A DNA stretch of 64,000 nucleotides. Source: Nitrospirota bacterium (lineage in GTDB: Bacteria; Nitrospirota; Nitrospiria; SBBL01; JAADHI01). Below are positions 4,008-23,227 of the stretch, in pieces (within the stretch, counting starts at the first letter, position 1; every line of letters begins with the position of its first letter). Location: assembly GCA_029261155.1 (NCBI GenBank), contig JAJDBW010000047.1, positions 1-64,000 of the forward strand. Reading direction: 5' to 3'. The notes beneath the pieces are model-generated. The model saw only the letters and a list, made by a program, of their open reading frames with translations, was not told the origin of the DNA and did no database searches. Both the position numbers and the translations under genes were made by a program.

Positions 4008-4023
4008 TGGCACGGCCCTTGCT
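4008..4023 (+). promoter_or_regulatory. Sigma-54 promoter TGGCACGGCCCTTGCT
   Basis: Matches TGGCAC-N5-TTGCW; upstream of 4121 CDS; identical core repeated at 6010 and 6757. Confidence 0.85.
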
Positions 4024-4120: not shown

Positions 4121-4495
4121 ATGAAAAAGATGACCGCATTGGCAGCGTTTTTAGGATTGGCAATTATGTTTGGCGCACCGGCGAAAAGCGAGGCCTTCTG
4201 CTTGCTGCTTTGCGACGACAGCGACGAAGTCGCGATTGTGCAAGTGGAAGAATTTGCAGAAGTGACCGACTCTTCTTTAACCGCCGGTGATGGCAACACC
4301 ACGGCGATCAAAAACAGCAACAGTGTGGTGATTGGTGACGACGTAAGCAATCGTCAGAGCAACTTCATGGGCGGCATCGGCCTCAACGGCGGTGACCTCA
4401 GCCAGAGCAACTCGGCCAACATCACCGGTCAGCAAAATACCAATATCCACGACAACGACATGCGTTCTTTCCGAGGCGTTGCAGGAAACAACTAA
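4121..4495 (+). CDS. Secreted Asn/Gln/Ser-rich protein, paralog 1 (possible curlin-like subunit)
   Basis: Signal peptide then FCLLLC...; SNSVVIGDDVSNRQSNF...SQSNSANITGQQNTN; RBS aaggagaaac. Confidence 0.75.
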   Translation: MKKMTALAAFLGLAIMFGAPAKSEAFCLLLCDDSDEVAIVQVEEFAEVTDSSLTAGDGNTTAIKNSNSVVIGDDVSNRQSNFMGGIGLNGGDLSQSNSANITGQQNTNIHDNDMRSFRGVAGNN

Positions 4496-4510
4496 TGCCT
4501 TTTGAATGAA

Positions 4511-4545
4511 AGGGGCGAGGCCGATGGCTTCGCCCCTTTTTTTTT
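4511..4545 (+). terminator. Rho-independent terminator
   Basis: AGGGGCGAGGCCGATGGCTTCGCCCCT followed by T tract. Confidence 0.85.
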
Positions 4546-6009: not shown

Positions 6010-6025
6010 TGGCACGGCCCTTGCT
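6010..6025 (+). promoter_or_regulatory. Sigma-54 promoter TGGCACGGCCCTTGCT
   Basis: Consensus match; identical to the 4008 site with flanks aaaatttt and ctatacacatcccgttaggcaatgac. Confidence 0.85.
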
Positions 6026-6124: not shown

Positions 6125-6499
6125 ATGAAAAAGATGACTGTGTTCGCGACGTTTTTGGGATTGGCGATGATGTTTGCAGCTCCGGCGAAGAGTGAAGCCT
6201 TCTGCCTGATCTTCTGCTCCGACGGCGACGAAGTGGCCGTGGTTGAAGTCGAAGAGTTTGCCGAAGTGACCGATTCTTCTTTAACCGCCGGTGATGGCAA
6301 CACCACGGCGATCAAAAATAGCAACAGTGTTGTGATTGGTGACGATGTCTCCAATCGTCAAAGCAACTTCATGGGCGGCATTGGCATGAACCGTGGCGAT
6401 CTCAGCCAGAGCAACTCGGCCAACATCACCGGTCAGCAAAACACCAACATCCATGACAACGACATGCGTTCGTTCCGAGGCGTAACCGGAAACAACTAA
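6125..6499 (+). CDS. Secreted Asn/Gln/Ser-rich protein, paralog 2
   Basis: Same length (124 aa), signal peptide and FCLxxC start of mature region as paralog 1. Confidence 0.75.
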   Translation: MKKMTVFATFLGLAMMFAAPAKSEAFCLIFCSDGDEVAVVEVEEFAEVTDSSLTAGDGNTTAIKNSNSVVIGDDVSNRQSNFMGGIGMNRGDLSQSNSANITGQQNTNIHDNDMRSFRGVTGNN

Positions 6500-6512
6500 T
6501 GCGGTATGGATA

Positions 6513-6546
6513 AAGGGGCGGCGCTTCGGTGCCGCCCCTTTTTTTT
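6513..6546 (+). terminator. Rho-independent terminator
   Basis: AAGGGGCGGCGCTTCGGTGCCGCCCCTT plus T tract. Confidence 0.85.
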
Positions 6547-6657: not shown

Positions 6658-6695
6658 CTTCCGGAATCCGAAAGGGTTTTTCCAGAATCCAAAAG
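6658..6695 (+). promoter_or_regulatory. Tandem upstream activating motif pair (cttccggaatccgaaag / tttccagaatccaaaag)
   Basis: Copies at 6658-6674 and 6679-6695. Confidence 0.5.
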
Positions 6696-6756
6696 TTCTG
6701 CGGTCTCGAAAAGACGGAAACCCCATTATACCGGGCGCTTTTCCCTGTTTTCGCCG

Positions 6757-6772
6757 TGGCACGGCCCTTGCT
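6757..6772 (+). promoter_or_regulatory. Sigma-54 promoter TGGCACGGCCCTTGCT
   Basis: Consensus match before the third paralog. Confidence 0.85.
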
Positions 6773-6864
6773 CTATAGCTTTGACGTTAGGCAAGACAAG
6801 AAGGAGTAAGGGCGTCCTCATTGGGATGATCCTTCAAACATTAAAAAACAAAGGAGAAACGAAA

Positions 6865-7239
6865 ATGAAAAAGATGATTGTCTTAGCAACATTTTTAGGA
6901 TTGGCGGTGATGTTTGCGGCACCGGCGAAGAGTGAAGCCTTCTGCTTGATTTTCTGCTCCGATAGCGACGAAGTCGCGGTGGTGGAAGTCGAAGCGTTTG
7001 CCGAAGTGACCGATTCGTCCTTAACGGCCGGCGACGGCAACACGACGGCGCTGAAGAACAGCAACACCGTGGTGATCGGCGGTGACGTGAACACCAACCA
7101 AAGGAATTTTATCGGCGGCATCGGTGTGAACCACGGCGATATTAGCCAGAGCAACTCGGCCAACATCACCGGCCAGCAAAACACCAACATCCACGACAAC
7201 GACATGCGTTCCTTCCGTGGACGCACGGGGAACAACTAA
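6865..7239 (+). CDS. Secreted Asn/Gln/Ser-rich protein, paralog 3
   Basis: 124 aa from ATG 6865 (RBS aaggagaaac); homologous to 4121 and 6125. Confidence 0.75.
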   Translation: MKKMIVLATFLGLAVMFAAPAKSEAFCLIFCSDSDEVAVVEVEAFAEVTDSSLTAGDGNTTALKNSNTVVIGGDVNTNQRNFIGGIGVNHGDISQSNSANITGQQNTNIHDNDMRSFRGRTGNN

Positions 7240-7257
7240 TCGAAACAAAAGCGAGAC

Positions 7258-7276
7258 GGGGGTGCGGTGCACCCCC
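7258..7276 (+). promoter_or_regulatory. Intercistronic hairpin GGGGGTGC-ggt-GCACCCCC without T tract
   Basis: Perfect 8-bp inverted repeat between paralog 3 and the next gene. Confidence 0.5.
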
Positions 7277-7299
7277 TACCGCTTAAAGGGAGAAGTCGG

Positions 7300-7767
7300 A
7301 TGAACAAGACAAAACAAATACTCATGACCAGCCTCATCATTTTTGGCCTTTTCCTTGCCGGAACGTTTGTCGTGGCGAATGCAGCGCCTCCGATTGAATC
7401 GGAAGAGGTGCAGGGGGAAGAGGCAGAAGAAGAAAAAGAAGAGCTGACGGCAGAAGAAAAGAAGGAAGCGAAAGAGAAAAAGAAACTGGGTGGCACACTC
7501 AGCAAGTTACGAAAATACCTCGAAGGCGAGGAAAAAAAATTACGCGTAAGCGGCAATCTGTTTAGTTCGAAACTGGATGTTTCGGACTGCACTTCGGCCG
7601 ATAAAGCGCGGGCCCGATTAAACGATGTGGGCGACGAAGGCGGGATTATTGTGAAGGAAGATTTGAACATCGGGGCCCACAACGAAGCCAATATCGAAAA
7701 GAACGAAGGCAGTATTACAAATGTGACGGAAGTCAATATTATTAACGAAGTTTACAAACGGTGCTAG
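7300..7767 (+). CDS. Small secreted protein, possible minor subunit/accessory
   Basis: Signal peptide, acidic/charged central segment, Asn-rich tail NIGAHNEANIEKNEGSITNVTEVNIINEV. Confidence 0.65.
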   Translation: MNKTKQILMTSLIIFGLFLAGTFVVANAAPPIESEEVQGEEAEEEKEELTAEEKKEAKEKKKLGGTLSKLRKYLEGEEKKLRVSGNLFSSKLDVSDCTSADKARARLNDVGDEGGIIVKEDLNIGAHNEANIEKNEGSITNVTEVNIINEVYKRC

Positions 7768-7798
7768 TCGAAGCTGTTGAAACAAGGCGGAGGATGAG

Positions 7799-8884
7799 AT
7801 GTTGAAACAAGGGGAATTCAAAATAAAATGGGGCTTGATGCTGATCCTGTTCTGGATCGTAAGCCTTGCACCGGCTGGGCTTAGGGGCCCGGCCTGGGCG
7901 GCGGCTGCCGGAGAGACCGGCGGGGTCAAGGTCCGTGTCGCCGTGGCGAAGTTTGGGGCGAACGATAGCTTTACGCAGCGCTATGGCGGTTGGGATGTCG
8001 GCGGTGGGCTCTCGGCCCAGTTGGTGACGGAATTGATCAACAGCGGTCAAGTCATCGTCGTCGAGCGCGGCATCCTGTCGCAGATTATCCGGGAACAGGA
8101 GTTGGCCAATTCCAAATTGGTGACGAAAGAAACCGCAGCCCAAGTCGGCAAGCTGCTCGGTGTCGATTATCTGATTGTTGGCGAGGTTACGGAATTCGAA
8201 CAAAAGGCCGTCGGCGCGGGCGGGCATTTCGGTCTATTTGATTGGTTTTTTCCAAAAGTTTCTGGAGATTTTACTGCGGCGCATGTCGGCATCGATCTGA
8301 GGGTCATTGACACCACCACCGGCGAAATCTTACATTCACACCGGGCCTCGGGCCGGGCTTGGGACAAGGCCGGCGCCGTGGAGCTGAATTCGCCCATTAG
8401 TTTTACCTTCGGCGCGGACGCCTTCCATAAAACCCCCCTGGGAAAAGCGACGCGTAAGGTCATCAACGATGCCCTGGGTTTTATCCTGGGATCGATACAA
8501 GAACGGCTGGAATCCTACTCCAATTGGGTTGGAAAGGTGATCCATGTCGAAGGTCAGCTCATTTACATTAATGCCGGGTCCATTTCACAGGTGAACGTGG
8601 GTGATCGCCTTTCCGTGTTTTCGATCAAAAAGGTGTTGACCGATCCAGAAACGAATCAGGTGGTCGGCCTAATCGAAAGCCCCATTGGTGAACTGGGCGT
8701 GGTGTCGACGAAAGAAAAGTTCTCCATGGCACGGGTAGTCGAAGGCAGGGTGCTCCCTAAAAAAGGCGATGTGGTCCGCTTCGCAAAACCCAGTGCCATA
8801 CCGGGAGCCAGCGGAGCGAGGCCGGGCGCGAAGGGACTCGAACAACTCAGTTATCAGGACGCGGATTACTTGGTGCTAGAGTAA
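7799..8884 (+). CDS. CsgG/HfaB-like outer-membrane secretion protein
   Basis: VAVAKFGANDS...GGGLSAQLVTELINSGQVIVVERGILSQIIREQELANS...AAQVGKLLGVDYLIVGEVTEF... Confidence 0.8.
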   Translation: MLKQGEFKIKWGLMLILFWIVSLAPAGLRGPAWAAAAGETGGVKVRVAVAKFGANDSFTQRYGGWDVGGGLSAQLVTELINSGQVIVVERGILSQIIREQELANSKLVTKETAAQVGKLLGVDYLIVGEVTEFEQKAVGAGGHFGLFDWFFPKVSGDFTAAHVGIDLRVIDTTTGEILHSHRASGRAWDKAGAVELNSPISFTFGADAFHKTPLGKATRKVINDALGFILGSIQERLESYSNWVGKVIHVEGQLIYINAGSISQVNVGDRLSVFSIKKVLTDPETNQVVGLIESPIGELGVVSTKEKFSMARVVEGRVLPKKGDVVRFAKPSAIPGASGARPGAKGLEQLSYQDADYLVLE

Positions 8885-8930
8885 TTCTGTTTGGGCAAAG
8901 CGTTTGACCCTTTAAGAAAGGTCGCATAAG

Positions 8931-10418
8931 ATGCACAGTCTCATGATAAAACGAATCCTTGTTATTCTCATCGCATTGGCGCAGGGGACCCTCTTGTCGG
9001 CATGTTTCCGCCAGGTGGCTCCGGATGAAGGCGGACCCACTTACTTGGAAGAAGGGCTCATCGCCTATGATCAGGGTCATTTCGATGAGGCCATCGGCCA
9101 TTTGAACAATGCCCTGAAGATTAATCCCGAAAACACCGAGGCCCGCTTTAAATTAGGCCTTATCTATCAAAAACAAAAACGGTTCGATGAAGCCCTTGCG
9201 GCTTATCGGGAAACGGTCCGGGTCGATCGCGCTCATATCAAGGCCCATTATAATTTGGCCAATCTCTATTCTTACGAAAAGGCCGACATGGTCCAGTCCA
9301 TATTCCATTACCGGCGCTTTTTGAGTCTCTCCCCCGGCCATCCCCACGCTGCCAGGGTGAGAAAACGGCTTCGTGAATTAACGGAGTCGCCGGACGAAAA
9401 AGGCTTGCATCACGCCATTGTGCCGCAAGGGAGAGTCCCCGAAACGGCCGTACTGGGGGGAGATTTGATTCAGCCGCCAACGCGGCCCCCTCAACTCCCT
9501 CTGGTACACCTCTCCTCTCAGCCGAGCGAAGTGTTTTCTTTTCCGCAAGTCGTTTGCCTCGAAGGGCGCGCGGGTCAAAACAAGGTCGAGGGCAGCGCCT
9601 TCGTCGTCGGCGCGGGCGGTTATCTCCTATCCAGCGGACATCAAGTAGATAAGGCGACGCAACTGATGGCGCGTTTCCAAGATGGAAAAAGTTATCCCGC
9701 GACTGTGCTTGCGGTCAGTGAAGCCCTCGATTTGGCCCTGCTTCAAATCCCCTATCCGGGTCTCGCGCCTCTGGAATTCGATAGGGCCCCATCGCCACGG
9801 GTTGGCGATACGGTCCTTGCCGTGGGCTGCCCCTTGGGGCTCGATCACAGCGCTTCGCAGGGGATTATCAGTGCGCCGGAGCGGAAGCTGGGTGGCATGC
9901 GACTTTTGCAAACCGACGTGTCGATTAATCCGGGCAATAGCGGCGGTCCCTTGCTTAATCAGGCGGGTGAGGTGACGGGCGTGATTGTGGGCGTGCTGCC
10001 CAAGGCCAATGGCATCGCCTTTGCGCTCCCAGCGGAAGAAGCGAAACGTTTTCTAGGCGCGACTTTTTTCCAAATCGGAAACTTGTTCGCCGAAGCCAAA
10101 CGCTATGACGAAGCGGCGGAGGCCCTGCAAACGAGTCTGCATTTCTCCCCCGAATCGGCGACGACACAGAGCAATCTGGGGGAGGTCTACCGGCGGATGA
10201 AACAATTTAAAAATGCGGAAAGCGCTTTTCTGAAAGCGGTTTCTCTCGATCCGCGTTATGCGGAAGCCCACTACAACCTCGGTGTGCTCTACGGCAATCA
10301 CCTGGGAGCCGAGGACAAGGCGGGAAGCCATTTTAGGGCTTATCTCAAACTGCAGCCGAATGCCGCCGATGCAAGCGAAGTGGGACAATGGCTGGCGGCG
10401 GCCGAGTCCACGGAATGA
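8931..10418 (+). CDS. TPR-flanked trypsin-like (S1C) serine protease, putative lipoprotein
   Basis: LLSAC lipobox; TPRs at both ends; SSGHQV / LDLALLQI / INPGNSGGPLL catalytic motifs. Confidence 0.8.
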   Translation: MHSLMIKRILVILIALAQGTLLSACFRQVAPDEGGPTYLEEGLIAYDQGHFDEAIGHLNNALKINPENTEARFKLGLIYQKQKRFDEALAAYRETVRVDRAHIKAHYNLANLYSYEKADMVQSIFHYRRFLSLSPGHPHAARVRKRLRELTESPDEKGLHHAIVPQGRVPETAVLGGDLIQPPTRPPQLPLVHLSSQPSEVFSFPQVVCLEGRAGQNKVEGSAFVVGAGGYLLSSGHQVDKATQLMARFQDGKSYPATVLAVSEALDLALLQIPYPGLAPLEFDRAPSPRVGDTVLAVGCPLGLDHSASQGIISAPERKLGGMRLLQTDVSINPGNSGGPLLNQAGEVTGVIVGVLPKANGIAFALPAEEAKRFLGATFFQIGNLFAEAKRYDEAAEALQTSLHFSPESATTQSNLGEVYRRMKQFKNAESAFLKAVSLDPRYAEAHYNLGVLYGNHLGAEDKAGSHFRAYLKLQPNAADASEVGQWLAAAESTE

Positions 10419-10447
10419 ATGAAGATCAAATGGGTAAGGATAGAACA

Positions 10448-11776
10448 ATGGAAAGCTTAGGGCGTTATAAAATTATCGAAGAAATCGGCCGTGGGGCGAT
10501 GGGCATCGTCTACAAAGGGAACGATCCGAAGATCAATCGGACCGTGGCCTTGAAGTGTTTGCGCGCCAACCTGCTTGATGGACGCGAGGGGGCCGGGCGA
10601 CGATTTCAATTGGAAATGCGCGCCTTGGGCCGCTTAATCCATCCCAATATTGTGACGATATTCGACGCCGGCGAAGAGGAGGAAAAGGGACAGGCCTATA
10701 TCGTCATGGAGTATGTCGAAGGCATTTCACTGGCCCAACTCATCAAACAGGGCCGGGCGCTCTCGATCGAACAGGCCGTTCAAATCGTCATTCAAATTTG
10801 CCGCGGGCTCGATTTTGCGCATTCAAAAGAAGTGATCCACCGCGACATTAAGCCAGGGAACATCCTGCTTTCGGAGGATTTTCAAACAGTTAAAATCACA
10901 GATTTCGGCATCGCCCGCCTCGACAATACCGCGCTAACGCAAACGGACCGCCTGACTGGGACCCCGCACTACATGTCACCGGAGCAATGCCGAGGCGAAG
11001 AACTCGACGGCCGTTCCGATCTCTTCGCCGTGGGGGCCCTGCTCTACGAGCTCCTGACCCGGCAGAAAGCTTTTGTTGGAGACTCGGTCGCCACAGTGAT
11101 GCATCAGGTGCTTCATACGAGTCCCTATCCCCCTGCCCTGGTCGATGGGACGATCCCAGAGGGCCTAAGCAGTGTGGCGATGCAGGCCTTGGAGAAGGAG
11201 GTCGATGACCGCTTCGCATCGGGCCAGGAGATGGCCGATGCCTTGTATGATGCAGCGGAGGCGAGCGGAACGCTCAGTATCAGTCAAACTTTTACAACAG
11301 AAGCGCTTGAAGCAAAGGAAGCCAAGACCCCCTTCCGATTCCAATATGCCCTTTATCTAAGTGTTTTCCTGATCGTGCTGGCGGTCTTTGTTGGCGCGAT
11401 TCGGCGGGAAGCCGTCACGAAGGATACTTTGTCCCAGGGACCGGCGGGCCTGGCGGAGACGCAAGCCGGGGTCGATGCGCCTGAAGTGCATCCGCCTTCG
11501 GTGTCTGTGGCCTTGCCGCCTGTTCCGGAAAAAAGTGCGGGGGCTCCGACCACTTTTCTCTCGAAAGGCCATGTGGCATTTTCGACCACGCCTTCGGGCG
11601 CGGATATTTTCATTAACGGCGACTTGGTGGGGAAGAGCCCGCTTTCGATTCAACTGCCGGCCGGTCCGCACGAACTGGTCGTTTTGAAAAAGGGCTTCCA
11701 TGCCTTGGAGGCCTCATTGGACGTTCCCTCCGGGGAGCGGATCCCCATTAACCTAAAACTGATAGAGGAGGAATGA
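10448..11776 (+). CDS. Hanks-type Ser/Thr protein kinase with TM segment and C-terminal PEGA domain
   Basis: GRYKIIEEIGRGAMGIVYKG, VIHRDIKPGNILL, DFGIAR, SPEQ; TM; VAFSTTPSGADIFINGDLVGKSPL. Confidence 0.9.
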   Translation: MESLGRYKIIEEIGRGAMGIVYKGNDPKINRTVALKCLRANLLDGREGAGRRFQLEMRALGRLIHPNIVTIFDAGEEEEKGQAYIVMEYVEGISLAQLIKQGRALSIEQAVQIVIQICRGLDFAHSKEVIHRDIKPGNILLSEDFQTVKITDFGIARLDNTALTQTDRLTGTPHYMSPEQCRGEELDGRSDLFAVGALLYELLTRQKAFVGDSVATVMHQVLHTSPYPPALVDGTIPEGLSSVAMQALEKEVDDRFASGQEMADALYDAAEASGTLSISQTFTTEALEAKEAKTPFRFQYALYLSVFLIVLAVFVGAIRREAVTKDTLSQGPAGLAETQAGVDAPEVHPPSVSVALPPVPEKSAGAPTTFLSKGHVAFSTTPSGADIFINGDLVGKSPLSIQLPAGPHELVVLKKGFHALEASLDVPSGERIPINLKLIEEE

Positions 11777-13692
11777 CCATGAAACCGATAAAGTGTTTGA
11801 TCCTGGTCGGTCTCAGCCTTTTCTTTCTCCTCGACGCTTGGCATGGAGAGGCGGCCCTTCAAAAAGGCACGATCGCCCCATCGATCCCGTCGTTGGAGAA
11901 AAAAGAAAAACGGCCGATGACCGTTGTTTACTTTTTTAAGCTCGACTCCAAGCCGGGCCGCGAAGGACTGGCGCATCTCCAATCGCTCTATAAACAGTAC
12001 GAAGCGGCAGGCATCGCCATCGTCGCCGTCAGCAAGGACGATCCCAAGGCCGTCGATGCCTATTTCAAATCGAAGCCAGTGCACTTTCCCGTCGTCAAGG
12101 ATTCAGGAAAGTTGTTTGACGGTTACGATCTGGGCTTCATCCTGCCAACGACTTATGTCTTGGGGCCGGGCGGCCGAGTGACGGATGTGCTTGAAGGCGG
12201 CGGGGCCTCCTCGCACCGCTTCGTGACCACAGTGGCGCAACGCGCACTTCAATTGAAAAAAACCGATTTGGCAAAGCAGCTCTTTACGAAGGCGGTCGAG
12301 GCGAATCCCAAAGACGCCGCCGGTCAAACGGGTTTGGGCCATGTCTTCTTAAAGGAAGGCAAGTTGGATAAAGCCGAGGCGGTTTTTTCCAAGGTGGCCC
12401 AACTGAAAGCCCCCGAGGCCATACTTGGAAAAGAGGGTTTGGCCGCTGTCCACATGAAAAAGGGGGAAAACGACAAGGCCCTCGCGCTTGCCGAAGACCT
12501 CCAGAAAAGCGATCCGGAGAACGGCCTGGTGCATCTTATCAAGGGCAACATCCTTGCCGGCCAAGGCAATCAGCAAGCGGCCTTGGTGTCCTACAACAAG
12601 GCCATCGAAGGCAAGCTCAGCAACGATTGGCAAGCGGCCGAGGCCCTGAACAAAGCCGGGCGGATTTATTCTGAGCAGGGCGAATACGATCAGGCGGAGT
12701 CGATGTATACGCGGGCCGTCAATCAAAATCCCTACTCCGCCGAAATCCTCACCAACCGCGGGGCCCTCTACGAAAAGAAGGGCGAACCTCAAAAGGCCCT
12801 GGCGCTCTATCAAGAGGCGCTCACCGTCGATCCGGAGGACAATGTCGCTCATCTGCTCGCCAAGCGCATGATGCAGCATTTGGCCTTTAAGGAAGACATG
12901 GCGCGGCAAAAGCGCATCGACGACTTGGTGGGCCAACTGACAGACCGTTTCAAGGCGGGTGACTTTAAAACAGCCGCCGATGCCGATGCCTGGTCTTCGC
13001 GGCCCATGACCGTGGCCTTTCTGGGGATGAAATCCATGGGCGGCGCCCTGCTCCGAGAAGGCATGGTGGAAGTGATTCAACAGGAGATCGGCCAAAGCTT
13101 GTCGGCCTCCGGCCGCATCTCCGTGGTCGAACGCGAAATCATGGACAAGCTTCTGGGCGAGTTAAAACTCGGTTCGTCTGAATTGGCCGATCCCGACACG
13201 GCTCTGAAATTGGGCCGACTCTTGGCTGCCCGCTTGGTGGTCACAGGATCGCTGGTCCAGGTCCCCGGCGGCCTTCGTCTCAGCCTGCGGCTGATCGATC
13301 CGGAAACCTCGGAAATCAAGATCCGCTATGCCGACGAAATGGGCGCGAATCAAAACCTCATTACGACCGCCGAGAAAAGCGCAGCCGCCCTGGGCGAACG
13401 GATCAAAGCCACCTATCCGCTGCGTGGGAAGATCGCCCTGGTCGAGGATGAAGGCCAGGTGATCATCAACCTCGGCAAGAAGCACGGTATCCTTGCCGGC
13501 ACCCAGATGAAGATCATTGCCGAGGGCAGTCCCATCGTCATCGACGGCAAGGTGATCGGGCATCGTAAAAAGAAAGTCGGCCTGCTTGAAATAACGGAGG
13601 TTGAAGAAAAACTGTCCTACGGCCGCTTGCAAGAGCAAGTGGCGAAAGTCGAAGTGAATCAAATGGTGATGGAGCGTGTGGACGGTCGTTAA
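11773..13692 (+). CDS. Thioredoxin-fold/TPR/CsgG-like fusion protein
   Basis: N-terminal redoxin-like region, central TPRs, C-terminal IQQEIGQSLSASGRISVVEREIMDKLLGELKLG...AARLVVTGSLVQV. Confidence 0.75.
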   Translation: MTMKPIKCLILVGLSLFFLLDAWHGEAALQKGTIAPSIPSLEKKEKRPMTVVYFFKLDSKPGREGLAHLQSLYKQYEAAGIAIVAVSKDDPKAVDAYFKSKPVHFPVVKDSGKLFDGYDLGFILPTTYVLGPGGRVTDVLEGGGASSHRFVTTVAQRALQLKKTDLAKQLFTKAVEANPKDAAGQTGLGHVFLKEGKLDKAEAVFSKVAQLKAPEAILGKEGLAAVHMKKGENDKALALAEDLQKSDPENGLVHLIKGNILAGQGNQQAALVSYNKAIEGKLSNDWQAAEALNKAGRIYSEQGEYDQAESMYTRAVNQNPYSAEILTNRGALYEKKGEPQKALALYQEALTVDPEDNVAHLLAKRMMQHLAFKEDMARQKRIDDLVGQLTDRFKAGDFKTAADADAWSSRPMTVAFLGMKSMGGALLREGMVEVIQQEIGQSLSASGRISVVEREIMDKLLGELKLGSSELADPDTALKLGRLLAARLVVTGSLVQVPGGLRLSLRLIDPETSEIKIRYADEMGANQNLITTAEKSAAALGERIKATYPLRGKIALVEDEGQVIINLGKKHGILAGTQMKIIAEGSPIVIDGKVIGHRKKKVGLLEITEVEEKLSYGRLQEQVAKVEVNQMVMERVDGR

Positions 13693-14413
13693 AACATTAA
13701 AGCCTTGGAAACGGGACGCGATGGTTTTCTTTGCCGCCCTGTCTTTAAGCGCCTGTGCCCATGGACCCGATCCGAAGGTTGCGGGTGAGATTCTTGCTGA
13801 AGAAGACCGGGCCCAGATTCTTACGGTGGCGGTTCTGCCCTTCGAGGACAACAGTCTCGCGGCTTCGCCGGAGACGGCGGGCTTGGGCCGCACGCTTGCA
13901 GACGGGATCGCGGACAGGCTTTCGGATGAAAGGGCCTTGGTCTTTATCGACCGAGAATCCATCGACAAAATCCTGGAGGAATTGGCCTTGTCGAGCGGAG
14001 GCCTGACCGAATCGGATCACCGCTTGCGCTTGGGCCACTTGCTGGGCGCGCAGTATTTGGTTGTGGGAGGCTACATGGCCATCGGGACCTCGCTTCGTGT
14101 GGATGCGCGCGTCATCGAAGTGGAACGGGGCTTGGCGGAGGGCCGCGCGGTTGAAGGCGGACTTGAGGCGCGAAGGGACATCGAACGCGCCTTGTCTCAA
14201 AAGATTTCCGAGGTCCTCCTGGCCAAGGCCAATCGCGGCAGCGTTTTAAGGCCGACAAGCAGCTTGGATTATTATCGAAGCGGGCTAGCGCTCGAAAAGA
14301 AAAAGCGATTCCAACAGGCATTAAGCCACTACCAACAGGCCTTGGCGCTCGACGTGGAAAATCAGCCCGCGCGCGAACGCATGGAGGCCTTGTTACTCAA
14401 GGAGCTCGAATAA
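13676..14413 (+). CDS. CsgG/FlgO (TolB-N)-like lipoprotein
   Basis: SLSAC lipobox; LTVAVLPFEDNSL...LADGIADRLSDERALVFIDRESIDKILEELALSSGGL; C-terminal TPR. Confidence 0.7.
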   Translation: MWTVVKTLKPWKRDAMVFFAALSLSACAHGPDPKVAGEILAEEDRAQILTVAVLPFEDNSLAASPETAGLGRTLADGIADRLSDERALVFIDRESIDKILEELALSSGGLTESDHRLRLGHLLGAQYLVVGGYMAIGTSLRVDARVIEVERGLAEGRAVEGGLEARRDIERALSQKISEVLLAKANRGSVLRPTSSLDYYRSGLALEKKKRFQQALSHYQQALALDVENQPARERMEALLLKELE

Positions 14414-14415
14414 AG

Positions 14416-15750
14416 ATGCAATCCATAGATCATAAACGAAAAAAAGGTGTTATCCCCTGGCGCGCACATCGTGCTTTTAGATCGATTATTCTTGGGGCTA
14501 TCGTTGTTCTCACTTTTTGTTCCATTATTGTGGAATCGGCATGGTCGATGGAACTGAAAGTGTTGAGAGGGCTTTATCAAAATGCACAATACGCGGAGAT
14601 TGTGAAGGACCTCGGGGAAGAAGGCGCATGGCGCGCCGATGAATCGCTCTATCTGGGATTAAGCCATTTGCGGCTTGGCAATTCTGAAAAGGCCATCCGC
14701 GCCTGGAAACGCTACGTGACCTTGGAAAAAGGAAGCGAAGGGGGCCGAAAGATAAACCAATACCTCACGCTGCTCAGGCAACAACATGCAAAGCAAGAGG
14801 CCCGCCGACTGATCGCGCAAGAAAAATCGCTATCGGAAAATTTGGATGCCAAGGCCATCGCGGTTTCTCTTTTTCAAAACCTGGGGCGCGCGGAGTATGC
14901 CCGGCTTTCTAAGGGCTTGGCCGAGATGATCATTACGGATTTGTCGCAAGTGAAGGCCTTGCGGGTGGTGGAGCGCATCCAAATCCAGGCCATTCTCAAC
15001 GAATTGAAATTGGCGGAGTCCGGCCTCGTCGATAAAAGCAGCGCAGCCCGGGTCGGCAAGTTGGTGGGTGCCGCGCGGGTGACCACCGGCAGTTATGTCG
15101 ATTTCGATGCCGAAAAAATTCGTCTTGATGCGGCGGTCAGCCGAACCGAAACCGGCAAGCTGCTGACGGCGAGCGAGGCCAGCGGGGCATTGGCCACTTT
15201 TTACGAATTGGAAAAAACCTTGGTTTTTAAAATTCTGTGCGGCATCGGTTACTGTCCGGAATCCTTGGAGAGCCGGGAGCGCCTTGCCGTCGAAAAAATA
15301 CACACGAAAAATTTTAAGGCCTTTGAACACTACTCTGAAGGCCTGGCACTTCGGGATCAGGGCGAGTATGTCGAGGCGGCGCGGGCCTTCTCGTTTGCGC
15401 TGGAAGAAGATCCGACATTCGACTTGGCCCGAAAGGCCCTCCTTGAAACCCCCATTGCCGAATTCGATCTTGCGGCCATGGTGAGCGGGGGAGAAGGGTT
15501 GGGAAAAGGGGGTCCGCCCATCCTTGATCTTCAGGCCATGTCGGCCTCGGCGCTTTTGGACGCGCCGATACTGCAGGGCAAGACGAGCCCGAAATCACTC
15601 CAATTGTCCGCCATTCAATCACAGGTGCCACTCTTTCCACTCATCTCACAACAACCCATGGGCAATACAGGTGGGACAACGGGCGGTGGCGGAACGGGGG
15701 CCGGCGCACCTCCGAACGTGAATGTTCAGATTCAAATTCAATTGCCATGA
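14416..15750 (+). CDS. TPR plus CsgG-like protein
   Basis: IAVSLFQNLG...LAEMIITDLSQVKALRVVERIQIQAILNELKLAESGL...VGKLVGAARVTTGSYV. Confidence 0.7.
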   Translation: MQSIDHKRKKGVIPWRAHRAFRSIILGAIVVLTFCSIIVESAWSMELKVLRGLYQNAQYAEIVKDLGEEGAWRADESLYLGLSHLRLGNSEKAIRAWKRYVTLEKGSEGGRKINQYLTLLRQQHAKQEARRLIAQEKSLSENLDAKAIAVSLFQNLGRAEYARLSKGLAEMIITDLSQVKALRVVERIQIQAILNELKLAESGLVDKSSAARVGKLVGAARVTTGSYVDFDAEKIRLDAAVSRTETGKLLTASEASGALATFYELEKTLVFKILCGIGYCPESLESRERLAVEKIHTKNFKAFEHYSEGLALRDQGEYVEAARAFSFALEEDPTFDLARKALLETPIAEFDLAAMVSGGEGLGKGGPPILDLQAMSASALLDAPILQGKTSPKSLQLSAIQSQVPLFPLISQQPMGNTGGTTGGGGTGAGAPPNVNVQIQIQLP

Positions 15751-17384
15751 GAGGAAGACAAGACATGTGCTTTCCAAAAGATTGCAGAACGAATTCGGCA
15801 CAACGGCGATTCCGGTTTATCAAGAGCACAGCGAGGGGCGGTGTTTTATCTTCTGCCCGACTGATGTTTTTTTTACTTCTTCCCCTCTTGTTTTCCTGCG
15901 GCCAAAACAATTCAAATCATTCCGATTCCTTGGGGATTACGCTCGAAATACCGCTCGGAGGATCTGAAAAGGGCCTTTCCAAATTACGTGCGGCCGAAGG
16001 CGAAGTCATCGGAGAAGTCCACTTCCGTGTTTCCACTGCAAGCGATGAAGAAGTCGTTGGGCAGGTTCAGGATCTTTTATTTGGACAACAAGCGATTTCG
16101 GTAACGCTCAATGTGCCCACGGCCGTGCCCCTGACTTTCTCGGTAGAAATTTTTGATAAGGACGGCCCGCGCCTCTTGTCTGGATCGACGGTGAAGACCC
16201 TTGTTCCCGCGAATAGCAGCGATCCGATTGTGATTCAACTTTTTCCGGAGCCTATCGTGGAATTTCCTATCGCGGTGAAAACCCATATCGAATTTGGCGC
16301 GAGCCTGGCCTTTGACGGCGAGAACTACTTGGTCGGCCTCTGGGAGGACACAGGCAATGGGGAAGGGATACAAACCCAGCGGGTTTCGCCTGCCGGAAGC
16401 CTCGTCGGTCCACCAACCGATATTTCGAGCCTGAGTGGAGACGCCTTGGGCGTGCCTTTCGTGGCCTTTGACGGCGCGAATTATTTGCTGGCGGCGCAGA
16501 TTTCCGATGAGGGTGTGCGATTGGATGGGCAAATTATTTCTACAGCGGGCGCGCTCGACGGTGAGCCCTTCAATATTGGAACTTCTTCCATTATCATCGA
16601 AGAAGAAAAGGGTGGCATGGCCTTTGGCGGGGGGAATTACTTGGTCGTTATCGAAAAGGACGATCAACAGGTTTTCGGCTACATCGTTACACCCGACGGC
16701 CAGGTCGGACGCCCCTTCTTGGTGAGCCAAAACGGCCATACGGGCGTGCACAATGTGAGCTTCGACGGCGTGAACTTTCTCGTGGTTTGGGCCGATGGCC
16801 AAAGCAATGCCGAGGTCAAGGGGCGCTTCGTCGATCCGACGGATTTGACTGGAAAAATGGGTGAGGAATTTACCGTTCATTCCGGTCAGTTTCCCAGCGA
16901 CGAATTCGTCACGCTGGCCTTCGGCGAAAGCCGGTACTTGGTGTTGTGGCAAGAAGAAGTCGGCGGGGCCGGGAGCAGCGATTGGGATATTTTCGGACAG
17001 TTGGTCGATCCCGCCGGGACCTTGATCGGCGAGCGCATAGCCATTGCGCAAGGCGCGGGTCCGCAGGTTTTTCCGAACGCTGTTTTTGATGGGGAGCAGT
17101 TCTTGGTGTCTTGGACCGAGGCCGCGAATCTATTCGATATTAAAATTCAAAAGCGCGCCTTCGATCTTTCCGGAAACCCTTTGGGCGCGGAATCGACCTT
17201 GTTTGTCTCGGCCGGTGACGGGCGCTTTCCCTGGTACAGCCGCATTGGGTTTAATGACACAAAATATTTTGCCGTGGTCAATCGCGGTCGGCCGGGAGAC
17301 GATCCCTTCGACATTAAGCAGTATCAAAATCAAGATGTTTTCGGGGCGGTTTTTTCGCTCTTGCAGCTGTCCGTATTGGATTAA
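15747..17384 (+). CDS. Putative surface lipoprotein with repeated FDGxNYLVxW blades
   Basis: LLFSCGQ lipobox; repeated AFDGENYLVGLW / AFDGANYLLAAQ / SFDGVNFLVVWAD / VFDGEQFLVSWTE. Confidence 0.65.
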   Translation: MRGRQDMCFPKDCRTNSAQRRFRFIKSTARGGVLSSARLMFFLLLPLLFSCGQNNSNHSDSLGITLEIPLGGSEKGLSKLRAAEGEVIGEVHFRVSTASDEEVVGQVQDLLFGQQAISVTLNVPTAVPLTFSVEIFDKDGPRLLSGSTVKTLVPANSSDPIVIQLFPEPIVEFPIAVKTHIEFGASLAFDGENYLVGLWEDTGNGEGIQTQRVSPAGSLVGPPTDISSLSGDALGVPFVAFDGANYLLAAQISDEGVRLDGQIISTAGALDGEPFNIGTSSIIIEEEKGGMAFGGGNYLVVIEKDDQQVFGYIVTPDGQVGRPFLVSQNGHTGVHNVSFDGVNFLVVWADGQSNAEVKGRFVDPTDLTGKMGEEFTVHSGQFPSDEFVTLAFGESRYLVLWQEEVGGAGSSDWDIFGQLVDPAGTLIGERIAIAQGAGPQVFPNAVFDGEQFLVSWTEAANLFDIKIQKRAFDLSGNPLGAESTLFVSAGDGRFPWYSRIGFNDTKYFAVVNRGRPGDDPFDIKQYQNQDVFGAVFSLLQLSVLD

Positions 17385-17443
17385 TGGGAAGGTCGCGTTT
17401 CAAGATAATAGGATTCAAAAATGAAAATAGAAAAGGTGGGGTC

Positions 17444-19006
17444 ATGATCCGAACAAGATTTAAGGTCGTTTTCGTTTTAATTTTGAGTGTCGCATTTCTG
17501 GGTTCAGTGCGGGTGGCGCACGCCGAAGCGGATAACTTATATCAGCGGCTGCTTTCGAAAGGCATTGGCGGTTTGGAGCGACGCGACCTGGGGCTCGCGC
17601 TACAAAATTTTGAAGAGGCCCTTGCGATGCAGCCCGAGGGCGTTGAGGCTAACTACTACCTGGGTGTGACGCATGCGCGGGCCAATCGCTTCAATAAAGC
17701 GGAGAGGCATTTTCTCAAAGCGATTTCGATCGAACGTACTTTTATGCCGGCCCAGTTTGACTTGGGGGTCCTTTATTATCAAAACAAGAAGGATCAAAAG
17801 GCGCTTCGCCTCTTCTCTATGGTGCAAGGGATGGACCCGGATCGGGCACGCGTTTATTTTTATCAGGGCGTAATTCTCCGTCGAAATGGAAAAACGGAAG
17901 AAGGCGATGCGAAGCTCGATCGGGCGCTTGCGCTCGATTCCGAGCTTGCGGCGGAAATTAATTTTTTAAGAGGGGCCGGCCACTTGCAGGCCGGACAATC
18001 CCGTGCCGCGCGAAAATCCTTACAAGAGGTGATTACCCTAACGCCGGAAGGTGAACTGGCGGACGCGGCGCGAGATTTGTTGGCACAAACGGGGGGGGCT
18101 TCCGGCAAGAAAAAACGCCTCAGTCTGCAGGCCTCCTTGGGCCTGCAGTACGACGACAATGTCATCCTCGAACCACGTTCGGCTTCCGCTTCAGCGGCGG
18201 GGATTACGAAGAAAAGCGATTTCGTCGGCCTGCTCTATCTACTGGCGAAATATGCCTGGTTGCAAGGGGACGATTGGCGCGGCGATCTCAAATACACTTA
18301 CTTTCTTAATTTCCACCAGGACAGTTCCTTGACTGATTTCGATGTCCAGGATAATCATTTTTCCGCAAGTGTTGGTCGCCGTTTCGGGAAGTTTGATGCC
18401 GACATCGAATATACCTTTCAAGTGGCCACCTTGGGCGGCGAAACCTACATACTTGCACATCGATTTCGCCCCAGAGCCATGCTTCATCATTCGAGGGCAC
18501 AAATTTCTGAGCTGGTGTATCAGTTCGGCATGAAGGATTTTGAAGATATTCCCTTGCTCTTTCCCGCCAATTCCGAACGCGATGTAAAGACCCATTTCCT
18601 CGGATTCAGTCATTATTTGGTTTACCTTCAAGATGGCGTGGTCTACGGAACGCTCTTGTATGAAATGGAAGCGGCGGGCGACAGTATTGCCGAAGACGAT
18701 TGGGGCTACGATGCCTTCGGCTTGAAATTGGGTACGGCCCTGCCGCCTTGGCACAGCCTAACGGCGGCCTTCGAATTGAATTGGCGGATGCGTCAATACA
18801 AAAACCCAAACCAACTTGCGCCGCTTGCGAACCCCGGGTTAAAACGGGAGGACGACGATCTTCTCTTCATCGTTTCCTTGAGCCGGCCCCTGAATGACGC
18901 CCTCGATCTATCGGCCCAGTACTTATATCAATTGAACGATTCGAATATCGCGGCTTTCGATTACCGACGGAATATTGTGGGATTTATCATCACGGCCAAG
19001 TATTAA
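17444..19006 (+). CDS. TPR protein with C-terminal outer-membrane beta-barrel-like region
   Basis: N-terminal TPRs then alternating beta-strand pattern ending ...DYRRNIVGFIITAKY. Confidence 0.65.
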   Translation: MIRTRFKVVFVLILSVAFLGSVRVAHAEADNLYQRLLSKGIGGLERRDLGLALQNFEEALAMQPEGVEANYYLGVTHARANRFNKAERHFLKAISIERTFMPAQFDLGVLYYQNKKDQKALRLFSMVQGMDPDRARVYFYQGVILRRNGKTEEGDAKLDRALALDSELAAEINFLRGAGHLQAGQSRAARKSLQEVITLTPEGELADAARDLLAQTGGASGKKKRLSLQASLGLQYDDNVILEPRSASASAAGITKKSDFVGLLYLLAKYAWLQGDDWRGDLKYTYFLNFHQDSSLTDFDVQDNHFSASVGRRFGKFDADIEYTFQVATLGGETYILAHRFRPRAMLHHSRAQISELVYQFGMKDFEDIPLLFPANSERDVKTHFLGFSHYLVYLQDGVVYGTLLYEMEAAGDSIAEDDWGYDAFGLKLGTALPPWHSLTAAFELNWRMRQYKNPNQLAPLANPGLKREDDDLLFIVSLSRPLNDALDLSAQYLYQLNDSNIAAFDYRRNIVGFIITAKY

Positions 19007-19021
19007 GGAAAGACAACAAGC

Positions 19022-22000
19022 TTGCGATCAAAAAAATCGGAGCCGATCCGCGAATGCGAGAAGACGATGGAGATCTTAAAGAAAAAGACCCTGGCGAATG
19101 GGACAAGGCATTGTGTTGGATTACGGACCCTTGCGCTTTTTTTTCTGCTTTTGTTTTTCGCAGCCTGTGGTCCCGGTGCTTCGGGCGGGGGCGCACCGGA
19201 GTCCACAAGCGCCGTCGGCATTACACTTTCCCTTCCCCAATCGAATACGGGGAATCGATCTAAAGCCCTTCGCGCCCCGTCGGTTTCCGAATCCATTGCG
19301 TCCTTACGTATCACGGTGAGCAGTGCCGACGGCGATGCCTTGACTTCGGCGGATCTGGATGTTTCCACGGGTGGAACCGTGACCGTTCCCTTGGCCGTGC
19401 CTTCCGGTTCTGCACGTCTTTTTGTTGTCGAAATCCTCGACAATAAAAAGAGGGTCTTGTTTCTGGGCAGCGCGATGGCCGATCTCTTGCCCGGTGTGTC
19501 CGTGACCCTGCCTGTCAGCGTTAGCCCACCCATGACGATCAGCCCGAATGTGATTAGCATTCCGGTCCGGGGCAGTCAGCAGTTTCAAGCGGCCTTGAGT
19601 CCCGCTTTGCTGGGGCTACTGATGGATGCGACACTCGATTGGCGCATCGAAGATGAAAATGGAACCGTCATCAAGGTCGGGATCCTTCCCGAAACAGGCG
19701 CGGCAGTGACCTACACCGCGCCGGATCAATTGCCAATTCAAAGCGACTTGATTATTAAAGTCTCCCTGCGCTCGAATCCAAATATTTATCAAAGCCTGCC
19801 GCTCTCCATTGTTCTGGCGCGCCTTGTGGATGGTCAGCTCGGCAATGATGGAGGGGATTGCGGCAGCGAACTTTCCCCCTGCAAAACCATCGGCAAGGCC
19901 ATGAACTTGGCAAAGGCGGGTGAGGTGGTCCTGGTCAAACCGGGCGTCTATCCTTTCGGCGGCGCCAATGGTGAAGCGGTGCCCTTGCCCTTGACCGAAG
20001 GCGTCACCTTGGAAGGCCAGGCGATCGACGGGCAATTGGCCATTCTCGATTTTATCTCTCCAAACAAGGACGACGATGAGACGCCGGGACCCGGCATTCT
20101 AGGTGCAAACGATGCGACCATTCGTGGCCTGACCCTTCAGGAAAACGGCCAATTTGACAGCCTCATCGACACGAAGGGATCGACGCTGGTCATTGAAAAT
20201 AATGTTTTTAAAGATTTGTGTGGGCAGTGCGGGGCTGTGGCGCTATGGGTTCAAGGCGGGGGCAGCCCGGAGATCTTGGGCAATCTCTTCGGGGATTTCG
20301 ATGCCGATGGTTTTACAAGGGCGTTACAAATTGATGACGCAAGCACACCGCGAATCCAATCCAACAGTTTTATTGGAAACAAAACTGGCGTTTCCATCCA
20401 AAACCCGGCTCAACCGGATATGGGCGGTGGGGCAAAGGGAAGCCTTGGCCACAATCGGCTTAGCTGTAATGAGGATGCCGATTTAACTAACAATTCATCC
20501 ACAGGAATTCTTTTTGCGCAAAACAACCAATGGGACCACGCGCCTCCGGAAGAGGGTGTGTTCGCGGTCGGGAGTGGAATCGACATTTTCGACGCGGGGC
20601 GTTTCATCGATGCAAGCAATGACAGCCTTTTTCCCAATTCGCGTTGCAATTACGGCATTCGCGTTTCGCCGGTATCCGGGTTGGTCACGACGGAAGATGG
20701 CGGAACCGCGAATTTTACAGTGGTATTGAACACCCCTCCGAAGGCCGATGTCTTCATTACCCTTTCGTCGAACGATACCAGTGAGGGGACGGTTTCTGTG
20801 CCAAGCTTAACGTTCACATCGGAGAATTGGAATCAGGTACAAACAGTGACGATTACCGGGAAGGACGATGACTCGGTAGACGGGGATGTCTCTTATACGA
20901 TTGAAATCGATCCCGCGCAAAGTGAGGATCTTCATTACGAGGGCAGGGATGCCGAGGATGTGTCTGTGCTCAATCAGGATAACGATTCGGCCTCCGGCGC
21001 GGGCATTACTGTGAACCCGACTACTGGCCTCGTTACGACGGAGGCAGGCGGCACGGACACCTTCACTGTCGTCCTGCGATCGCAGCCGACGGCGCCGGTC
21101 ACCATTGGGCTGACTTCGGATAACACCTTAGAAGGCACCGTTTCTCCGAACAGCCTAACCTTCACAGTCGCCAACTGGAACCGAGAACAAGTCGTGACGA
21201 TCACGGGTCAGAATGATGACGTGGCCGATGGCGATGTGGACTACACCATTGTGACGGCAGCGGCAAGCAGCAGCGATGCAATCTACAACGGCATGGATGC
21301 GGAAGATGTGACGCTTACAAATCAAGACAACGATACGGTCGGCATTACCGTGAATCCCATCGCCGGTCTGGTGACGACCGAGGCGGGCGGAAGCGACAGC
21401 TTTAGCCTTGTGCTCAATTCGCAGCCGAGGGCACCGGTGACCATTCGATTGCGGTCGAGCGACACGACAGAAGGAAGCCTTTCACTCAGCAGCCTCACTT
21501 TTACGGCGACCAATTGGAACATCGAACAGCGCGTGACGGTGACAGGCGTCAATGACGACATTGATGATGAAGATGTCGATTACTTAATCATCACCACCGC
21601 ATCGAGCAATGATGCAGCGTACAACGTGATCGATCCTGACGATGTGGGTGTCACGAATCGTGATGACGATCAGTTCGGCATTCTTGTTAATCCACTCATC
21701 GGCTTGGTGACCACCGAAGCGGGCGGAACGGCGACCTTTACCGTTGTCCTTCAGTCTCAACCGACGGCAAACGTGAATATTGGACTTTCTTCCAGTGACG
21801 GAACGGAAGGCCGGGTCTCAGCCCAGAGCCTCACCTTTACTTCCACAAACTGGAACCAGGCACAAACCGTGACCGTCACGGGACAAGATGACGATGTGGC
21901 CGATGGACCGGTTGCGTACACCATTTTCACGGATCCTGCAACAAGCAACGACCCGAGCTATAACGGACTGGATCCCGCGGATGTCTCACTTACGAACCAA

Positions 22001-23227
22001 GACAACGATGCTGTCGGCATCACCGTGAATCCCATCGCTGGTTTGGTGACCACCGAGGCGGGCGGAACGGACCGCTTTACCCTCGTTCTAAACTCACAAC
22101 CGATTGCCGACGTTACGGTCCGTATTTCATCAAGCGATACGAGTGAAGGAAGCGTTTCGCCGATTAGCGTAAGCTTTGGTTTGGCGAATTGGAATCAAGC
22201 CCAAACTGTGGTCGTGACCGGACTGGATGATAGTGTGGTGGATGGTGATATCGCTTACACGATTGTGACGGCACCCGCCGGGAGCAACGATCCGAATTAC
22301 AATGGCCTCGATCCCTCCGATGTCGCGGTGACGAACCAGGACAATGATGTGCTCTCGCACACCCTCACCGTTCGGACGGCCGGAACGGGACGCGGATCTG
22401 TCAGTTCTCTTCCCGCCGGGATTGATTGCGGCCAGGACTGTTCAGAAAGCTTTCCGGCGGGTACACAGGTCCGCTTAACCGCGATTCCAGACAAAGCCTC
22501 GGTCTTTAGCGGTTGGAGCGGCGATCCGGATTGCAGTGCAGCAGGCGCGGCAACTTCGGTGACCATGAATGGCGATAAAACCTGCGTGGCGACCTTCACG
22601 CTGCTTTATATCTTCAAGGCCAACTTCGATTCCGACGATGTCGGCAAACCCCCGAATATCAGTCCGCCCGCGCAGGGCGACCAGGTTTGGGATCGCTTGG
22701 AACTCATTACAGGCCAGAGCGGAAGGGTTCACGTTCAGGACCAGGTGGGTGACTTGAGTAAAAACCCGCTTTTACTCGATTCGCCGACACGCCAAAATGG
22801 ATCCGTTGCTTTCCGCGGATTTGTGGAAGGGGCGCCGCCCGGAAGAGGTGTCTATCTATTGCGCTGGCAGTCCCTTTTGAACTCGGACCCCCAGGTTCCT
22901 GTTGCGGCCAATATCGGCATCCTCGACAGCGAGGGGACGATCATCGGGGTCCTGACTTACCGCGCAGGTAATTTGCTCGACTTCAATAATATTTCCCCGG
23001 AGGAAGGCATTGGCGTGCCCTGGAAATTGGATGTCGCTCAAACCTTTGAGGTGACTGTAAATCTCGACATAAACAGGCTGAGCCTTACTATTGACGGTGT
23101 CGCAGTTTCGGGATTTCAGGATGTCCCCTTCTTTAGTCAGAATACGGGGGGTCTTGCAGAGATTATTATGAGTGTGGGTGTGCTTCAGAAGATGGGTGTG
23201 GACGATATCGAAGTGATCGTCCAGTAA
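19022..23227 (+). CDS. 1401-aa surface lipoprotein: beta-helix region, five ~110-aa tandem beta domains, InlB-B-like repeat, C-terminal lectin-like region
   Basis: FAACG lipobox; five copies of GLVTTEAGGTxxFTVVL...SSDTTEG...LTFTxxNWNxxQTVTVTGxDDD; LTVRTAGTGRGSVSS...CVATF. Confidence 0.75.
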   Translation: MRSKKSEPIRECEKTMEILKKKTLANGTRHCVGLRTLALFFLLLFFAACGPGASGGGAPESTSAVGITLSLPQSNTGNRSKALRAPSVSESIASLRITVSSADGDALTSADLDVSTGGTVTVPLAVPSGSARLFVVEILDNKKRVLFLGSAMADLLPGVSVTLPVSVSPPMTISPNVISIPVRGSQQFQAALSPALLGLLMDATLDWRIEDENGTVIKVGILPETGAAVTYTAPDQLPIQSDLIIKVSLRSNPNIYQSLPLSIVLARLVDGQLGNDGGDCGSELSPCKTIGKAMNLAKAGEVVLVKPGVYPFGGANGEAVPLPLTEGVTLEGQAIDGQLAILDFISPNKDDDETPGPGILGANDATIRGLTLQENGQFDSLIDTKGSTLVIENNVFKDLCGQCGAVALWVQGGGSPEILGNLFGDFDADGFTRALQIDDASTPRIQSNSFIGNKTGVSIQNPAQPDMGGGAKGSLGHNRLSCNEDADLTNNSSTGILFAQNNQWDHAPPEEGVFAVGSGIDIFDAGRFIDASNDSLFPNSRCNYGIRVSPVSGLVTTEDGGTANFTVVLNTPPKADVFITLSSNDTSEGTVSVPSLTFTSENWNQVQTVTITGKDDDSVDGDVSYTIEIDPAQSEDLHYEGRDAEDVSVLNQDNDSASGAGITVNPTTGLVTTEAGGTDTFTVVLRSQPTAPVTIGLTSDNTLEGTVSPNSLTFTVANWNREQVVTITGQNDDVADGDVDYTIVTAAASSSDAIYNGMDAEDVTLTNQDNDTVGITVNPIAGLVTTEAGGSDSFSLVLNSQPRAPVTIRLRSSDTTEGSLSLSSLTFTATNWNIEQRVTVTGVNDDIDDEDVDYLIITTASSNDAAYNVIDPDDVGVTNRDDDQFGILVNPLIGLVTTEAGGTATFTVVLQSQPTANVNIGLSSSDGTEGRVSAQSLTFTSTNWNQAQTVTVTGQDDDVADGPVAYTIFTDPATSNDPSYNGLDPADVSLTNQDNDAVGITVNPIAGLVTTEAGGTDRFTLVLNSQPIADVTVRISSSDTSEGSVSPISVSFGLANWNQAQTVVVTGLDDSVVDGDIAYTIVTAPAGSNDPNYNGLDPSDVAVTNQDNDVLSHTLTVRTAGTGRGSVSSLPAGIDCGQDCSESFPAGTQVRLTAIPDKASVFSGWSGDPDCSAAGAATSVTMNGDKTCVATFTLLYIFKANFDSDDVGKPPNISPPAQGDQVWDRLELITGQSGRVHVQDQVGDLSKNPLLLDSPTRQNGSVAFRGFVEGAPPGRGVYLLRWQSLLNSDPQVPVAANIGILDSEGTIIGVLTYRAGNLLDFNNISPEEGIGVPWKLDVAQTFEVTVNLDINRLSLTIDGVAVSGFQDVPFFSQNTGGLAEIIMSVGVLQKMGVDDIEVIVQ

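Follow-up and report, generated by a model that had tools for sequence, protein, structure and literature searches.

Curli and holdfast anchors are known to use CsgG-type export. The stretch analysed here, 64,000 nucleotides of contig JAJDBW010000047.1 from a Nitrospirota bacterium (hereafter the window; host genome size 3.56 Mb), carries a predicted pore of this type preceded by genes for small Asn-rich secreted proteins, and it raises the question of what such a locus exports and whether it is a curli system. In our reading, the locus probably encodes a sigma-54-controlled, CsgG-family system for the export and surface assembly of Asn-rich subunits at the outer membrane, distinct from curli. 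CsgG-dependent, sigma-54-driven export of such subunits is well supported as a prediction from sequence. The relatives used for comparison are Nitrospirota of the Troglogloeales/Manganitrophaceae group.

Gene order, promoters and conservation

An earlier note, made from the letters of the sequence, had described eleven co-directional genes running from a third sigma-54 promoter with overlaps or gaps of at most about 60 bp. This description is borne out: the genes occupy the + strand from 6865 (S3, 6865-7239) to 23227 (surface protein, 19022-23227), and their junctions measure, in order, +60, +31, +46, -31, -4, -17, +2, -4, -1 and +15 bp, i.e. a span of -31 to +60 bp. The promoter, TGGCACGGCCCTTGCT at 6757, has zero mismatches, and no strong terminator was found between the genes. 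The start of the locus had been placed at 6658; we move it to 4008 to include two further subunit genes, S1 (4121) and S2 (6125), which belong to the same system and each have an identical box and their own terminator. Genes other than S1, S2, S3 and gene2 are named below by their first position. The features of the export part are as follows.

4008..4023, +, sigma-54 (-24/-12) box before S1, 0 mismatches, ATG 98 bp downstream
4121..4495, +, S1, secreted subunit of 124 aa with signal peptide and CxxxC, Asn/Ser/Gly-rich, 80-89% identical to S2/S3
4508..4540, +, intrinsic terminator after S1, 15-pair stem and T run
6010..6025, +, sigma-54 box before S2, 0 mismatches
6125..6499, +, S2, secreted subunit of 124 aa, 86% identical to S3
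6512..6541, +, intrinsic terminator after S2, 13-pair stem and T run
6757..6772, +, sigma-54 box of the long operon, 0 mismatches, S3 93 bp downstream
6865..7239, +, S3, secreted subunit of 124 aa and first gene of the operon; homologs adjoin the pore gene in relatives
7258..7276, +, stem-loop without T run in the S3-gene2 gap; fold of 7240-7299 at -22.9 kcal/mol, z -2.4
7300..7767, +, gene2, secreted protein of 155 aa with a charged N-terminal part and a Cys-bracketed, Asn-rich C-terminal part
7799..8884, +, predicted CsgG-type outer-membrane pore (PF03783, 4e-30) with a FlgT_C-like C-terminal domain and no Cys lipid anchor

The boxes at 4008, 6010 and 6757 are identical, and subunit starts lie 93-100 bp downstream of each. 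In 535 kb of strand sequence (11 loci, some of them the same genome under two identifiers), 13 perfect boxes were found, of which 12 precede a subunit gene. The remaining one, TGGCACAGTGATTGCT, is a fourth perfect box of the window (53184, - strand); it lies where a short open reading frame of the minus strand begins, near a sigma-54 activator gene (53624-54988). In the Troglogloeales loci checked, a box with 0-1 mismatches lies 66-109 bp ahead of the first subunit gene, and boxes of the same quality also precede loci L084, L087, L139 and L143, outside Troglogloeales. With a -24/-12 box that keeps its position ahead of the first gene in the window and in relatives, this is a predicted sigma-54 operon.

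S3 lacks a strong terminator, unlike S1 and S2, and its transcript can therefore continue into the genes for the machinery. The stem-loop in the S3-gene2 gap is possibly an mRNA processing or stability element. Stem-loops without a long T run were found 3' of subunit genes at 15 of the 16 junctions folded, with sequences that differ between lineages. Shuffle tests on six of the subunit junctions gave z values of -2.4 to -5.3 in five and no signal in L069. Stem-loop elements in fimbrial operons can raise the expression of the subunit over that of the machine. Their presence after almost every subunit gene therefore suggests high subunit-to-machine ratios here.

The neighbourhood is conserved in related genomes. 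The gene set is present in all five genomes of the sister genus (G003 and G005-G008; the contigs of G006 and G008 stop within the surface gene) and in Candidatus (Ca.) Manganitrophus-type genomes (G012, G014, G015 and G018, over two contigs in G016, and its first part only in G017, where the contig ends). The shared set comprises the subunits, gene2, CsgG, the TPR/protease protein, the kinase, the thioredoxin fusion, the CsgG-like lipoprotein, the TPR/CsgG-like protein, the surface protein and the barrel. Gene order is constant up to the CsgG-like lipoprotein and differs at the 3' end: the barrel gene follows the surface gene in relatives and precedes it in the window, and most relatives have an extra surface-like lipoprotein. 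No clear ortholog of 15747 was found in these sister-genus and Ca. Manganitrophus relatives.

A five-gene core, made of two Asn/Ser-rich subunits, gene2, a CsgG pore and a TPR lipoprotein, also occurs in a distant phylum. It was found in metagenome-assembled genomes (MAGs) labelled Deltaproteobacteria or Bdellovibrio (L084-L087, not every contig holding all core genes) and in further genomes of that phylum, where gene2 is present in 8 of 47 genomes. Core subunit 1 is N/S/T/D-rich without Cys, and core subunit 2 has CxxxC and an RxxSHNxG-like motif. Two genomes each carry two gene2-CsgG core cassettes (L140 and L141 in G345; L085 and L144 in G316). The CsgG homologs at 12 other Nitrospirota loci (L116-L127), checked for the subunits and gene2, represent a different context because both are absent. 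In a Nitrospinae MAG (L088, L089), CsgG-like genes 39-42% identical to 7799 have no recognisable subunit or gene2 neighbours.

The predicted pore and the secreted subunits

For 7799, hidden Markov models (HMMs) and, at moderate confidence, structure prediction support the CsgG fold proposed earlier. The PF03783 match reaches 105 bits over positions 9-205 of 210, and the best profile match in the PDB is CsgG (1.3e-7), the C-terminal domain resembling that of TsaP. In E. coli CsgG, two hairpins from the central sheet build the barrel. The corresponding insertions of 7799 measure 37 and 36 residues, against 11-12 and 13-18 in the three other CsgG-like proteins of the operon, and AlphaFold2 models long strands at 124-141, 153-171 and 177-195. 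The insertion lengths are near-constant in 15 pore orthologs (first: 34-38), with Tyr and Trp conserved just upstream; this region may correspond to the constriction of CsgG, formed by Tyr51/Asn55/Phe56 (PMC6957492). Like the curli pore, 7799 is thus predicted to have two transmembrane hairpins; unlike a lipidated CsgG, it has no lipobox and no cysteine at all. The several CsgG paralogs announced by the earlier note are real insofar as four proteins contain CsgG-like domains, but only 7799 is of pore type. We therefore reject the idea of several pores, since three of the four proteins lack the insertions: 7799 is probably the pore, and the others are taken as periplasmic scaffold.

A quite improbable alternative is that 7799 and the paralogs assemble into periplasmic rings like those of FlgT, round a flagellum or pilus, the small proteins being periplasmic or surface ornaments. 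It draws on the best Foldseek matches, which contain FlgT (8z5n, E=3e-13; 3w1e, 4e-13), on the TsaP-like C-terminal domain and on weak Pfam matches to FlgT_M and FlgT_C. These matches, however, stay below the cut-offs (25 bits for 31.2 and 18.3 bits for 27, respectively), against the nearly full-length CsgG match, both long insertions are present, and neither the operon nor the core cassette contains a flagellar or pilus gene.

In NCBIfam, the best match of 7799 is HfaB (2.4e-6, against 0.02 for CsgG), which is thought to export HfaA and HfaD (PMC6707917). This match, together with the large surface proteins and the putative barrel of the operon, would fit a holdfast-anchor-like complex comparable to Caulobacter HfaABD, in which the CsgG-type pore serves a small number of surface proteins, and these tether a sheath of polysaccharide or mineral instead of building long fibres. 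We consider this rather unlikely: the HfaB score is 26.9 bits for a family cut-off of 300, the operon has no polysaccharide genes, and a tandem of two or three subunit genes, with stem-loops, points to mass production. S3 and gene2 matched neither HfaA nor HfaD in a general NCBIfam scan, no directed search being made.

S3 belongs to no Pfam family, and profile searches of the PDB with the subunits and gene2 gave chance-level matches only. CxxxC lies close to the mature start in all 26 subunits aligned, none of which contains the minimal curli motif QxGxxN. Curlin repeats (PF07012), CsgE and CsgF were each absent by HMM from 10 of 10 genomes, the E. coli control being detected. Of the curli-like secretion proposed earlier, the pore-type CsgG and the conserved neighbourhood with its boxes therefore stand, but membership in curli is rejected on the repeats (including QxGxxN), CsgE and CsgF. 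That the locus is a true, very divergent csg system, with curlin repeats no longer recognisable, is highly improbable, even if small Asn/Gln/Ser/Gly-rich subunits, a second minor component and the pore-type CsgG speak for it and CsgE and CsgF are missing from some accepted alphaproteobacterial curli systems (PMC3521004); besides the missing components, the absence of a Cys for lipidation and the extra FlgT_C-like domain of 7799 count against it.

In gene2, C97 and C155 do not vary among 15 sequences of two phyla. The C-terminal part of gene2 is similar to the subunits (VNIRVGHEKLEI vs VTINAGHERLDV, L086), and on this ground gene2 is probably a minor subunit or nucleator.

Accessory proteins and candidate regulators

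The rest of the operon encodes the following proteins.

8931..10418, +, lipoprotein with TPR/trypsin-like protease/TPR (Trypsin_2, 3e-30)
10388..11776, +, Ser/Thr kinase with transmembrane segment and PEGA domain (Pkinase 7e-51, PEGA 9e-12)
11773..13692, +, fusion of thioredoxin-fold (no CxxC), TPR, hairpin-less CsgG-like and FlgT_C-like domains, from domain matches
13676..14413, +, hairpin-less CsgG-like lipoprotein with TPR (partial CsgG match, 1e-9; lipobox LSAC; loop of 11 residues)
14416..15750, +, TPR and hairpin-less CsgG-like protein (partial CsgG match, 1e-10; loop of 12 residues)
15747..17384, +, lipoprotein of 545 aa, no family match (LFSC lipobox)
17384..19006, +, TPR and putative outer-membrane beta-barrel protein (TPR matches, weak BBP2_2 and TIGR03016; relatives at 42-46% identity)
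19022..23227, +, surface protein of 1401 aa (hydrophobic signal ending AAC; DUF1565 beta-helix, 1e-29; repeated modules; InlB-B-like repeat)

The domains assigned earlier were thus recovered with Pfam, from CsgG at 7799 to the protease, the kinase with PEGA, the TPRs and DUF1565. The surface protein also matches Flg_new_2 (1e-8) and has homologs inside the same cluster in relatives. The thioredoxin/TPR/CsgG fusion proposed earlier corresponds to 11773, but CxxC is absent from its thioredoxin domain in all nine relatives, which makes an oxidoreductase unlikely; a redox role is rejected. Loss of the protease triad in relatives, suspected from strict patterns, was rejected after alignment, the catalytic His/Asp/Ser being conserved in all ten sequences. 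The VALK/HRD/DFG motifs of the kinase are intact in 11 of 11.

In Ca. Manganitrophus (L080-L082) and in L083, the operon is immediately preceded by a sigma-54 activator gene. In one of these, the complete genome CP114561 (L080, 6097-8165 and 11088-12607), the gene for the activator and that for the TPR/protease protein each appear as a pair of overlapping frames, for which long-read sequencing errors may be responsible. The Manganitrophus-type activator was looked for and not found in the genome of the window, which has one FHA-type sigma-54 activator, unlinked to the operon. Among the core loci, L142 has genes for an FHA-type activator and a kinase after the core, and L141 has them on either side of it; in L140 and L144, FHA proteins lie between the CsgG and TPR genes. 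With the kinase motifs intact and these genes beside the core, a loop from kinase to FHA-type activator to sigma-54 is plausible.

Other genes of the window were recorded around and beyond the cluster. Between S1 and S2 (4766-5841), an aquaporin-like channel gene overlaps a low-molecular-weight phosphatase/arsenate-reductase-like gene; the pair looks like arsenic handling. Upstream of the subunit genes, a large, divergent lipoprotein-like gene with the FTGCGLWAVDPAQ motif (946-3660, -) has counterparts in the same divergent placement in two relatives (L075:258-2795, -; L076:1-2305, -), and the L075 copy has no Pfam match. At 29366-30264, two overlapping open reading frames resemble a broken zinc-ribbon transposase.

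Proposed mechanism and comparison with known systems

Several observations weigh against the proposed sigma-54-controlled export system of the CsgG family. Three genomes lack the operon (G001, which is the second genome of the genus, G002 and G004), and no sigma-54 activator is linked to it in the window. At L085, L140, L141, L142 and L144, no box came up within 400 bp of the chosen start; for L141, L142 and L144 this absence is not firm because the coordinate used lay off the start codon. The AlphaFold2 model of 7799 is of moderate confidence (mean pLDDT, the predicted local distance difference test score, 61.7), and Foldseek ranks the periplasmic ring protein FlgT first, CsgG next. Finally, the AlphaFold2 model of the subunit is unstructured (pLDDT 40) and therefore supports neither fibre nor fold.

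For such a system we infer the export route, the roles of the partners, polymerisation and the kinase-activator link as follows. An enhancer-binding activator and sigma-54 would switch on the three subunit promoters. S1 and S2 would be transcribed alone, and the S3 transcript would read on into the machinery, the stem-loop favouring subunit over machine mRNA. After crossing the inner membrane via Sec, the CxxxC-tagged subunits and the gene2 protein, with its Cys pair and a probable CsgB-like role, would pass the outer membrane unfolded through an oligomeric 7799 pore. Export gating or quality control may fall to the TPR/protease lipoprotein, whose place in the minimal core is taken by a plain TPR lipoprotein. 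The hairpin-less CsgG/TPR proteins would form the periplasmic scaffold, and the barrel and the large beta-helix protein a surface platform. The kinase may sense the periplasm by its PEGA domain and pass the signal on in the cytoplasm, an FHA-type sigma-54 activator being a plausible receiver. Only tentatively do we extend this to a separate class of CsgG-dependent export, with CxxxC-tagged Asn/Ser-rich subunits, a Cys-bracketed gene2 nucleator and a Ser/Thr kinase that targets an FHA-type sigma-54 activator, a class which Mn-oxidising Nitrospirota and a distant subsurface phylum might use for a surface polymer, possibly a matrix organising mineral oxides.

Searches for Manganitrophus with CsgG, and for CsgG with FlgT/TolB paralogs, found no description of the cluster in the freely readable texts covered, among which neither the first report of Ca. 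Manganitrophus nor supplementary tables figured. The comparative-genomics paper on the Mn-oxidiser family puts its emphasis on electron-transfer genes and type IV pili, and neither 'curli' nor 'secret-' occurs in its main text (PMC9040806). Here the pore is combined with sigma-54 boxes, with unrelated subunits, and with a kinase and a protease encoded in the operon itself, and this in lineages some of whose members are enriched Mn(II) oxidisers. The system would offer a candidate for the cell-surface material of these lineages and a new model of substrate recognition by CsgG pores.

Compared with known systems, the locus shares with curli (type VIII secretion) a CsgG with two hairpin insertions and small Asn/Gln/Ser-rich secreted subunits with a second minor component. 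It differs from curli in that its CsgG is not a lipoprotein and bears an added FlgT_C-like domain, in its sigma-54 promoters, and in the extra operon genes for the TPR/protease protein, the kinase, the hairpin-less CsgG-like proteins, the barrel and the giant surface protein. FlgT, from the flagellar H ring, has the same succession of a CsgG/FlgT_M-like and a FlgT_C-like domain and is the top Foldseek match; the sub-threshold Pfam scores, the long hairpin insertions and the lack of flagellar context set 7799 apart. In Caulobacter HfaABD, too, a relative of CsgG, HfaB, goes with two surface proteins, one small and CsgA-like, the other larger, but the HfaB score of 7799 is far below the family cut-off and the gene set here is much larger. 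The system would function like curli or holdfast-anchor export, and we classify it as a variant of CsgG-type export.

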